This document shows, in pieces, positions 24,906 to 35,028 of a stretch of DNA of 64,000 nt. The first letter of the stretch is position 1. Each line of letters starts with the position of its first letter. Below the pieces are notes generated by a model. It was not told the DNA's origin and did not search any database. It worked only from the letters and a program-made list of their open reading frames with translations. The DNA comes from Acidiferrobacter thiooxydans (lineage in GTDB: Bacteria; Pseudomonadota; Gammaproteobacteria; Acidiferrobacterales; Acidiferrobacteraceae): NCBI RefSeq assembly GCF_003333315.1, contig NZ_PSYR01000001.1, positions 1,080,501 to 1,144,500 of the forward strand, written 5' to 3'. Both the position numbers and the translations under genes were made by a program.

Positions 24906-25020
24906 TGGCGGTGACGGCCGACCCCCGCTGTGGCGATCGATCGTAAACCCGGTCAGGTCCGGAAGGAAGCAGCCGTAGCGATCCGGTCGGGTGCAGCGTC
25001 GGGCCGGCCCAAGCCGCCAC
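24906..25020 (+). ncRNA. ffs: Signal recognition particle RNA, small bacterial type (4.5S)
   Basis: The near-universal SRP core GGTCAGGTCCGGAAGGAAGC lies at 24951-24970, followed by AGCCG. The ends pair, 24906-24911 with 25014-25019, and inner segments can fold into the long hairpin. It sits just upstream of dnaX, a common place in gammaproteobacteria, and overlaps a spurious 38-residue N-terminal extension of the dnaX frame. End positions are estimates. Confidence 0.93.
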
Positions 25021-25043: not shown

Positions 25044-26828
25044 ATGAGTTATCTGGTGCTGGCGCGAAAATGGCGTCCGCGCACATTCCCAGAGCTTTTG
25101 GGTCAGGACTCCGTGGTCCGCGCGTTGCGTTTTGCCTTGAGCGAAGGGCGTGTCCACCATGCCTATCTTTTCAGCGGCATCCGTGGCGTCGGCAAGACCA
25201 CCGTGGCGCGTCTCCTTGCCAAGGCTTTGAACTGTGAGCAAGGGATGGGGCCCGACCCGTGCGGGAAGTGTTCGGCCTGCCAGGAGATAGACGCCGGGCG
25301 ATTCGCCGATCTCATCGAGGTCGACGCGGCCTCGCGCACCAAGGTCGACGATACCCGTGAGCTTCTCGATAATGTGCAGTACGCACCGACCCGCGGGCGC
25401 TACAAGGTGTACCTCGTCGATGAGGTCCATATGCTCTCGACCCATAGCTTCAATGCCCTTCTCAAGACCCTGGAGGAGCCCCCGCCACACGTCAAATTTA
25501 TTCTCGCAACCACGGATCCGCAGAAACTCCCGGTCACGGTCCTATCACGTTGCCAGAAATTCGCCCTGCGGCGCCTGACCGATACCCAGATTCGCGACCA
25601 TATGGCCGCGATCCTGCGCGAAGAGGGCATGGAATACGATGATGAGGCCCTGGTAGCGCTTTCGCGCGCTGCCGAAGGGAGTGTTCGCGATGCCCTGAGT
25701 CTACTGGACCAAGCGATCGCGGCGGGGGGTGGGGCGGTGCGGGCCGGGGCAGTGCGCGACATGCTCGGGGCGGTGGCTCCGGACCTTGTGCACCGGGTGA
25801 TCGCGGCGCTCGCTGACGGCGATGGCGCCACACTACTGGCGGCCATCGATGAGGCCTATTCGCTAGGCGTGGCGCCAGAAGTGTTTTTGGGTGACATCGT
25901 GCGCGCCTGGCATGAGATCGCAGTCGCTCAGGTGCTGAGCGCGGAATCGGCGGATGCGTGGACGCAGGGGATGGCGCAACGGCTACCTCCCGAGGCCGTG
26001 CAGCTCTATTACGAGATTGGGTGCTTAGGGCGTCGTCAGATGGGTGCGGCCCCTGATCCCGAGACCGGGTTGCGCATGACGGCCTTGCGAATGTTGGCGT
26101 TCCGGCCGGTCAGCGATGTGCCGAGTAAGCCGCAGATTGCGAGGCCAAGCCGTGCGCCGCACGATACGCGCGGGAGTGGGGGTCAGGAGGGCGCCGCGCT
26201 AGCGGGCCAATCGCCAATAAGTCCTGTGAGCGTACGGGGCGCCCCGATTGCCGCTGGCGACCAGAGGCCCGCAGACCAGAGGCCCGCAGACCAGAGGCCC
26301 GCAGACCAGAGGCCCGCAGACCAGAGGCCCGCAGACCAGAGGCCCGCAGACCAGAGGCCCGCAGACCAGAGGCCCGCAGACCAGAGGCCCGCAGACCAGA
26401 CGCGGTCCCCGGTGGTGGTTACGGAGACCGCCCCCGCCCCAGGGGGTTCGGTTCTAGAGCGGCTTGGTCTGGCCGGCCTTATGAAGCATATAGCCATGAA
26501 CGCCGTGTTGGATAAGAGTGGCGATCGGGTGGTGGTAACCGTGGATCCGGAGGCCGGCAAGCTCCTGAACAAAGAGCGGATCGATATGTTAAAGGAGGCG
26601 CTTTGCGCCTATTATAAAGACCCTATCACCGTGGATGTGGTGGTGGCTCCTGTGACCGGCACGCCGGCCCATCTACGCCGTGAGGCTGAAGAGGCCGCGC
26701 AGTGTCGGGCACGCGAGGCGCTCGCCGCTGATCCAGGGGTAGCGGCCCTGAAGCGGACGTTCAATGCCCGTGTGAACGAGGGTTCCATGCGACCGCGCAA
26801 TAGCACAGCAGAGGAGCGAGATTTATGA
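25044..26828 (+). CDS. dnaX: DNA polymerase III subunit tau
   Basis: A 594-residue clamp-loader ATPase. Walker A is GIRGVGKTT, the zinc module [13 protein letters not shown], Walker [10 protein letters not shown] and the SRC motif VLSRCQKF. The ATG at 25044 ([15 protein letters not shown]) is the family start; upstream codons lie in the SRP RNA. Residues about 406-450 are nine exact RPADQ repeats encoded by a 15-bp tandem array in the linker between the ATPase part and the C-terminal tau domain. No obvious slippery site for a gamma product was noticed. The next gene, ybaB, overlaps the stop. Confidence 0.96.
26259..26400 (+). repeat. 15-bp tandem repeat, nine perfect copies, inside dnaX
   Basis: The unit GACCAGAGGCCCGCA is repeated exactly nine times from 26259 to 26393, followed by a 7-base partial copy. 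It is in frame and encodes RPADQ repeats. Copies are identical at every base, which implies recent expansion or ongoing homogenisation. Confidence 0.97.
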
Positions 26829-27145
26829 AGGGTGGTATGGGACAGCTCATGAAGCAGGCGCAGGCGATGCAGGAGAATCTGCGCAAGGCGCAGTCGGAAC
26901 TTGCCACGCTTGAGGTGGAAGGACAGGCGGGTGGTGGGCTCGTCAAAGTCACGATGACCTGTCGCAATGATGTGCGCAAGGTGCGTCTGGACGAGTCTCT
27001 CCTGAAGGAGGATCGCGAGGTCGTGGAGGACCTTGTGGCGGCGGCTATGAATGATGCCGTGCGCAAGGCTGAGCAGATGAGCCAGGAGCGGCTTGCCGGC
27101 CTTACCGCCGGCTTCAACATTCCCGGTCTAAACCTCCCGTTCTGA
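26825..27145 (+). CDS. ybaB: YbaB/EbfC nucleoid-associated protein
   Basis: A 106-residue DNA-binding protein with the family pattern [21 protein letters not shown] and [29 protein letters not shown]. It starts 4 bases before the dnaX stop and ends 2 bases before the recR start, giving the conserved dnaX-ybaB-recR operon. A ribosome site (GAGGAGCGAG) lies upstream of the ATG at 26825. Confidence 0.96.
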
Positions 27146-27147
27146 TT

Positions 27148-27747
27148 TTGAGCAACGATACCAAGGCGCTCGAGGATCTGAAGCGCGCCCTACGTCGCCT
27201 GCCTGGCATAGGCACCAAGTCCGCGCAACGTATGGCATTCCACTTGTTGGGGCGCGACCGGAGCGTGGCTCGTGACATCGCCGAGGCCTTGTTGCGCGCC
27301 GTCGATCGTATCGGCCATTGCCAACAATGCAATAATTTCAGTGAAACCGAGATCTGCGCCATTTGCCGCTCGCCACGACGCGATAGTGGACTTCTGTGCG
27401 TCGTCGAGTCGCCGGCAGATCTCGTGTCCCTGGAACAGTCCGGGGCCTTTGGTGGAACGTATTTCGTATTGATGGGGCGGCTGTCGCCTCTTGACGGTAT
27501 TGGACCAGAGGAGCTGGGTCTGCCCAAGCTCGAGGCCTTGCTCGACGGGGGTGTGGTGCGTGAGGTTATTCTCGCTACCAACGCCACCGTCGAGGGTGAG
27601 GCCACCGCCCACTACATCGGGGAGCTCGCGCGGCGACGCAATCTGCTGGCGACCCGTATCGCCTGCGGAGTGCCGATCGGAGGTGAGATCGAGTACATCG
27701 ATCGCGGCACGCTCGCTCGCGCATTTTCGGGGCGTCGCGAGGCGTAG
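27148..27747 (+). CDS. recR: Recombination protein RecR
   Basis: A 199-residue recombination mediator that works with RecF and RecO at gapped DNA. It has the helix-hairpin-helix [17 protein letters not shown], a four-cysteine zinc finger ([16 protein letters not shown]) and a Toprim domain ([17 protein letters not shown]). The likely start is TTG at 27148, two bases after the ybaB stop, which fits the family N-terminus. Translational coupling with ybaB is probable. Confidence 0.96.
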
Positions 27748-33702: not shown

Positions 33703-34146
33703 TCAGGCGGCTTGCGCCCGAGTCGCTTCGGTGGGTTCCTGTTTCACGGAACGGCCTGACTGCGCCCATTCTCCACAGGCTAACAAGCGATGCCCTCGCT
33801 CTACAATAGTGATCGCGCCGACGAGATCGGCGTTGTCCGCGAAACCGCACTCCACGCAGGCAAATCGGGCTTGCGTCTTGCGATTGTCGGCGCTGATGTG
33901 GCCACAGCACGGGCACGTCCGGCTGGTGTAGTGCGGCGGCACGGCGACGAGCCAGCCGCCGTTCCACGCCAGCTTGTAGTCCAGTGGGCGGCGGAACTCG
34001 AACCCGCCCGGGTCGAGGATGGACTTGTTCAGGCCGGACTTGGCCCGGACGGTTCTTCCCGGTTTCTCGGTTGTGCCGGCCGCTGATTGGGACATATTCC
34101 GCACCGGCAGGTCCTCGAGACATACGATCGCGTGGTTTTGGCTGAC

Positions 34147-34206
34147 ATGGCCGGCCGCATGGCCGGTCGCATGGCCGGTCGCATGGCCGGTCGCATGGCC
34201 GGTCGC
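34147..34206 (-). repeat. 12-bp tandem repeat, five copies, inside tnpB
   Basis: Four exact copies of ATGGCCGGTCGC and one variant (34147-34158) run end to end. On the minus strand they encode four ATGH and one AAGH unit and keep the reading frame. Confidence 0.93.
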
Positions 34207-34927
34207 AGTCGTGGTCTTGTGCAGGAAGTCGCGGCGAGCATTGGCGATGCGTACGTGAATCTTCTGGACGTGGGCCCTCGCCTTCTTCCCGTTGTGGCTG
34301 AACTTCTGTTTGCGGCTCATGGCCCGTTGATAACGAGCGAGGCGCTGCTGGTGTTTCTGGAAGCTGTTGAGGGGTTCGATGAAGCGACCATCGCTTAGGG
34401 TGGCAAAGCGCATGATCCCCCTGTCGATGCCGACCATGCTGGAGGCAGGGGGGACGGGTTCGGCCACATGGCGCTCGGTCTGGATGCTGATGAACCACTT
34501 GCCACCGTTCAGGGACACGGTGACATTCTTCACCGTGCCCAGCACCTCCCGGCTGTTGCGATAACGCAACCACCCGAGTTTGGGCAGAAAGATGCGACTA
34601 TTGGCCTGATCGAGCTTGACCCCTTGCGGATAGCGAAAGCGGTCGGATCGACCTTTTTTCTTGGGGCTCGGGAAGTCGGCGCGTTTCTCGAAGAAGTTCT
34701 TGTAGGCCCGCTCCAAATTCTTGAGCGATTGCTGCAGGGCTTGGCTTGGTGTTTCGTTCAGCCAGGCCCTGTGCGGATGCGCCTTCCACGCGGTGAGTTC
34801 CTTGCACAGTCCAGCGTAGCCAAGCCTCTTCTCGCCACGCTCGTAGCGTTCCTTCGGCTACGCCAGCGCCTGATTGTAGACAAACCGGCACGACCCAGCA
34901 AAACGGCGTAGCTGACGTTGTTGCATG

Positions 34928-34987
34928 CCGGTGGGTTTGATCTCGTACCGGTGGGTTTGATCTCGTACCGGTGGGTTTGATCTCATA
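34928..34987 (-). repeat. 20-bp tandem triplication in tnpB N-terminus
   Basis: CCGGTGGGTTTGATCTCGTA occurs twice and a one-base variant ending CATA once, head to tail. Forty extra bases break the tnpB reading frame. Confidence 0.92.
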
Positions 34988-35028
34988 CTTGAAGGCCTGG
35001 AGACGAACCATAACCCTTATTATAGGCT

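Follow-up and report, generated by a model that had tools for sequence, protein, structure and literature searches.

An in-frame minisatellite in the tau linker of dnaX in Acidiferrobacter thiooxydans, with differently homogenised units in sister species

Intragenic tandem repeats have been described in Legionella pneumophila, where, in the part of PMC2639597 consulted, strains differ in 7 of 26 arrays, internal uniformity is on average higher in those that vary, and the list includes recG (12 bp x 4). The array that we describe here, in dnaX of Acidiferrobacter thiooxydans, resembles those arrays in having a unit divisible by three, in occupying an ordinary host gene and in being uniform inside like the variable ones. 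It differs from what that part of the report presents in its host gene, in its nine perfect copies, and in that sister species carry, at the corresponding site, arrays homogenised to other units. Also close is tau of E. coli, which, as treated in the consulted sections of PMC11470591, likewise has domains I-III, a long unstructured linker and the polymerase-binding domain V. However, these sections do not mention a tandem array, and they attribute the E. coli gamma product to programmed frameshifting early in domain IV, whereas in the gene studied here no in-frame X-XXY-YYZ heptamer, the signal of the E. coli type of frameshift, was found at 26001-26480. On flexible linkers, the part of PMC3290774 consulted contains general remarks only. 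A search of the open-access literature, by title or beginning of the abstract, returned no report of a tandem array in dnaX. The array is a known kind of repeat in an unusual gene.

The analysed stretch of A. thiooxydans DNA (64,000 nucleotides; hereafter the window, to which plain coordinates refer) contains the following features around the array:

24916..25012, + strand: bacterial small SRP RNA, upstream neighbour of dnaX and outside the array (Rfam RF00169, 70.6 bits)
25044..26828, + strand: dnaX, DNA polymerase III subunit tau, 594 aa, with ATG at 25044 (NF005942, 681.7 bits, cut-off 613)
25737..26099, + strand: domain III, PF12169, residues 232-352 (Pfam)
26115..26444, + strand: linker, residues 358-467, predicted to be disordered (AlphaFold2, alignment)
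26259..26400, + strand: minisatellite, 15-bp unit GACCAGAGGCCCGCA x 9.5, encoding DQ(RPADQ)9 (TRF, translation)
26451..26786, + strand: domain V, polymerase alpha subunit binding, PF12170, residues 470-581 (Pfam; PDB 5fku_E at residues 466-584)

The dnaX product matches PF13177, PF22608, PF12169 and PF12170, all above cut-off, and so possesses domains I-III and V that characterise tau. Downstream are the reading frames 26825-27145 and 27148-27747, presumably homologues of ybaB/ebfC and recR, and the neighbourhood of the gene is ordinary. Between R354 and V470 there is no invariant column in an alignment of 12 sequences (11 from the genus and one from the family). In the AlphaFold2 model residues 358-467 stay under pLDDT 50 and are entirely coil, devoid of secondary structure, while residues 471-570 reach block means of 72-85. 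Confidence is poor across the model as a whole (mean pLDDT 60.9, pTM 0.29), with values of 36-60 even in much of the conserved N-terminal domain; a low score by itself is therefore no proof of disorder in the linker. Low pLDDT and lack of conservation taken together suggest that the poorly conserved linker between domains III and V is probably disordered.

Tandem Repeats Finder, run on the window, reports period 15, 9.5 copies and 100% matches at 26259-26400, which bears out an earlier note on this DNA that had described nine identical 15-bp repeats inside dnaX. The array consists of nine full identical units followed by the 7 bp GACCAGA and is translated in frame as DQ(RPADQ)9T; translation and Pfam together place it between the clamp-loader and polymerase-binding parts, in agreement with the same note's assignment of (RPADQ)9 to the tau linker. 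Since one unit is five codons, the frame stays open to 26828, and any gain or loss of a copy changes the linker by five residues, which are hydrophilic and net-neutral as a unit. The array is far beyond chance expectation, as 20 Markov-1 resamplings of the window produced no exact adjacent duplication of a 15-mer. In 1.224 Mb of the A. thiooxydans genome (58 stretches of 20 kb plus the window, at 63.5% G+C; the genome has 3.25 Mb) such duplications occur at five places, and only those in dnaX and scpB exceed three copies. Exact matches to GASCMGAGGCCSGCA, the dnaX unit with the bases variable among three species allowed, were found in dnaX of A. thiooxydans (9) and of two other species of the genus, G002 (5) and G005 (1), and at no other place in the 14 genomes of the genus. 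Compared with shuffled sequences, the - strand of the array folds better (z -3.53), for which its repeat nature alone may account, and the + strand does not (z 0.16).

The same site was compared in all 14 genomes of the genus, one per species, with A. thiooxydans (G000) as the reference. In G002 it carries 6.3 copies of GAGCAGAGGCCGGCA and in G005 2.1 copies of GACCCGAGGCCCGCA, both 100% identical inside, the G005 unit differing from that of A. thiooxydans by one base and the G002 unit by two. The linkers of A. thiooxydans, G002 and G005 measure 115, 102 and 79 aa, respectively; copy number and linker length thus differ among sister species, where the earlier note had suggested differences among strains. 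By its tandem unit of the ~10-100 bp class inside a gene, its frame-keeping unit length and its varying copy number among related lineages, the array is a coding minisatellite, or intragenic VNTR. No such array is present in the other 11 dnaX genes of the genus, where the TRF maximum is 2.6 copies (11-bp unit in G012; 10 bp x 2 in G006). Their linkers are 70-85 aa long in ten members and 146 aa in G009; as the latter is array-free, the longer linker of A. thiooxydans still lies within the tolerance of the genus. In the wider family, three of the four further members were checked (all except G015): G014 and G016 have no linker array, and the G017 sequence reads N there.

The first 344 codons of dnaX are identical to those of A. 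thiooxydans at 968/1032 nt in G005 and 928/1032 nt in G002. Since A. thiooxydans and G005 diverged, a static array should have collected 4.4-9.9 substitutions on the A. thiooxydans side, and none is observed (P = 0.012 to 5e-5, according to the stretch that sets the rate); for a static G002 array 6.0-9.9 would be expected, again with none observed. Arrays that are perfect inside, with units fixed differently by species, indicate that the renewal of copies outpaces the build-up of point mutations. Perfect identity had been taken to mean recent or continuing slippage; the perfect arrays and sister-specific units uphold the recent copy turnover but not slippage continuing today. The G002 assembly is probably a MAG whose contig name states a coverage of 2.9, and in G005 dnaX (L023, L301; G005:C1 near 2104390) a single base shifts the frame around codon 280, before the linker is reached, probably through an error in the sequence of this essential gene; both dnaX sequences may hence contain errors. 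A second A. thiooxydans strain, ZJ, has an ANI of 99.56% to m-1 according to the part of PMC8889020 consulted, and within-species copy variation, if true, would make the repeat usable as a strain marker.

A class-wide search found dnaX in 149 of 158 genomes. The stretches downstream of the match were surveyed in 80 of the 148 besides A. thiooxydans (the 79 next-best matches and one more), and none of the 80 holds at least four copies at 85% identity or more, although contig ends cut five of them, including L110, L113 and L115, which are shorter than 600 bases, and arrays could be missed in these. One stretch (L078) has 12 bp x 3.3 at 86%, and the highest count within a linker as delimited here is 15 bp x 3.5 at 70% (L089).

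Another long array, met in one of the evenly spaced stretches sampled from A. thiooxydans, lies in scpB, in the C-terminal tail of the product (TIGR00281), where units encoding ATEPE are 99% identical:

L074:14395-14756 (G000:C2:414395-414756): ScpB tail array, 15 bp x 24.1

Of 31 relatives, 28 yielded an ScpB (G007, G009 and G022 did not), and the tails were searched for repeats whose period was a multiple of three between 9 and 30 bp. Arrays with at least four copies of a 9-15-bp unit are present in 10 of the 12 ScpB genes from the genus, 2 of 4 from the rest of the family and 0 of 12 from the rest of the order. Of the two genus members without one, G008 has 9 bp x 3.4, and the 2.4 copies of G004 are interrupted by a contig edge. 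The units are species-specific: ATEPE, ATESE, AHDTE, ATDTE, ASETE, TSESE, 12-bp DADS/EADT forms and a 9-bp EQA. The less uniform arrays are those of G012 (82%) and G005 (78% with the 15-bp unit, 100% when read as 3.2 copies of a 30-bp unit). In G013 two contigs with somewhat different copies stop at or next to the scpB array, and two contigs of G004 likewise stop there. The ScpB arrays are like that of dnaX in being in frame, with species-specific and mostly 15-bp units, and mostly perfect or nearly so; the tail that holds them is not part of the conserved domain. They are unlike it in their mostly acidic units, in reaching 24 copies and in being far more widespread in the genus. These arrays suggest that renewal at fixed sites extends beyond dnaX and that the lineage repeats it again and again. 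Our search of the open-access literature listed no paper evidently concerned with condensin ScpB.

On the coding strand the scpB and dnaX units of A. thiooxydans have GAGGCC in common, and a pattern search built on this core matched 8 of the 14 genus genomes (reversed control, 0). We rejected it as a DNA signal linking the two genes: seven of the eight matches are the known dnaX or scpB sites or their contig-end pieces, the eighth, in G008, is imperfect and chance-like, the codon frames differ between the genes, and only two loci are involved. Moreover, GAGGCC is present in 1.4% of 15-mers sampled from A. thiooxydans, so that one common 6-mer is unremarkable.

The mismatch repair genes of the order were surveyed with MutS1 and MutL searches whose controls, E. 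coli among them, were positive. Of 47 order genomes (completeness at least 80%) one has MutS1 above cut-off, against 102 of 115 class genomes (at least 95%); the 13 that fall short in the class sample include the order members A. thiooxydans and G023 as well as G084 and G127, which have fragments at contig ends. MutL was above cut-off in 1 of 46 relatives, the same genome that has MutS1 (G201), with the two genes adjacent. The MutS-family protein of A. thiooxydans is a MutS2 that matches profile positions 4-512 of 790, the first two thirds. Judged from these profile matches, MutS1 and MutL are apparently missing across the order; an open-access literature search on MutS in Acidiferrobacterales found nothing among the papers listed, and the apparent absence merits a separate study. 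MutS of E. coli handles loops no longer than a few bases, and 15-nt loops, or slippage of that size, are expected to escape the MutS-MutL pathway, so we make no causal claim for its loss. Mismatch repair loss as the cause of the arrays was also rejected on the grounds that G028, which lacks MutS1 and MutL too, is array-free in its sample. SbcD was above cut-off in none of the 14 genus genomes (one partial match, in G002), but this says little, since just 8 of the 13 control genomes with a match passed the cut-off.

The dnaX array is very probably an in-frame coding minisatellite in an unstructured tau linker, seeded by an ancestral duplication, expanded and homogenised lineage by lineage through slippage or exchange, and tolerated. 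The seed would have been a short imperfect duplication in the ancestor of the three sister species, from which replication slippage or unequal exchange among copies would have produced a separate expansion and homogenisation in each lineage. The linker would accommodate steps of five residues with near-neutral tolerance, and the array could thus survive in the essential dnaX because a flexible linker tolerates changes in length. We consider it quite unlikely that the RPADQ count is instead selected to set the reach of tau among clamp loader, helicase and polymerase, and kept for replisome coupling. The linkers of the sister species do differ by up to 36 aa, domains I-III and IV/V of the E. coli protein are connected by the long unstructured linker, and E. 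coli dnaX mutants in the polymerase-binding part grow more slowly, with more SOS and more mutagenesis (consulted sections of PMC11470591), a picture with which the consulted part of PMC11869525 agrees. Nevertheless, eleven species of the genus manage without an array, ten at 70-85 aa and one at 146 aa, and the unit sequence itself varies between sister species. The 0, 2, 6 and 9 copies form a clean natural series in the tether between helicase, clamp loader and polymerase, so that it can be tested directly how tether length affects replication.

An assembly artefact, with a lower real copy number or a mis-assembled array, is very improbable. A perfect 142-bp array is difficult for short reads, and the G013 and G004 contigs do end at or adjoining scpB arrays; however, the dnaX array sits in a 1.43 Mb contig, and a separate assembly, that of G002, shows at the corresponding position a perfect array built of another unit, an outcome that a copying error would not yield. 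Even less credible is the insertion of a dispersed or mobile repeat element in dnaX. The shared GAGGCC would favour it, but the hexamer stands in different codon frames and its sharing is unremarkable, and the unit is confined to dnaX of three among 14 genus genomes instead of occurring at several loci. A further idea, that in an order apparently without MutS-MutL the arrays in flexible parts of the replication protein tau and the chromosome-segregation protein ScpB act as quickly adjustable length controls, with slippage in dnaX altering the linker of its own machine and so closing a loop, is in our view highly doubtful.

Arrays of at least three copies at 90% identity number 8 in the 1.224 Mb of A. 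thiooxydans (one cut by the end of a stretch), 1 in 0.4 Mb of G005 and 0 in 0.4 Mb of G028; these samples are too small for a claim of genome-wide minisatellite excess. The window itself contains a 12 bp x 5.2 array at 34146-34207 (- strand) that encodes ATGH repeats inside a TnpB-family gene, and a 20 bp x 3.0 array at 97% at 34928-34988. Elsewhere in A. thiooxydans, a perfect 21 bp x 5.5 array encoding ARATQAE (L068:11742-11857; G000:C1:1211742-1211857) lies in a gene with weak methyltransferase matches, and a perfect 11 bp x 7.5 array (L297:979-1061; G000:C1:999978-1000060) has a unit that is no multiple of three, with no gene identified over it. In G005 a 24 bp x 7.2 array at 98% (L279:18992-19164) is located within a long open frame.
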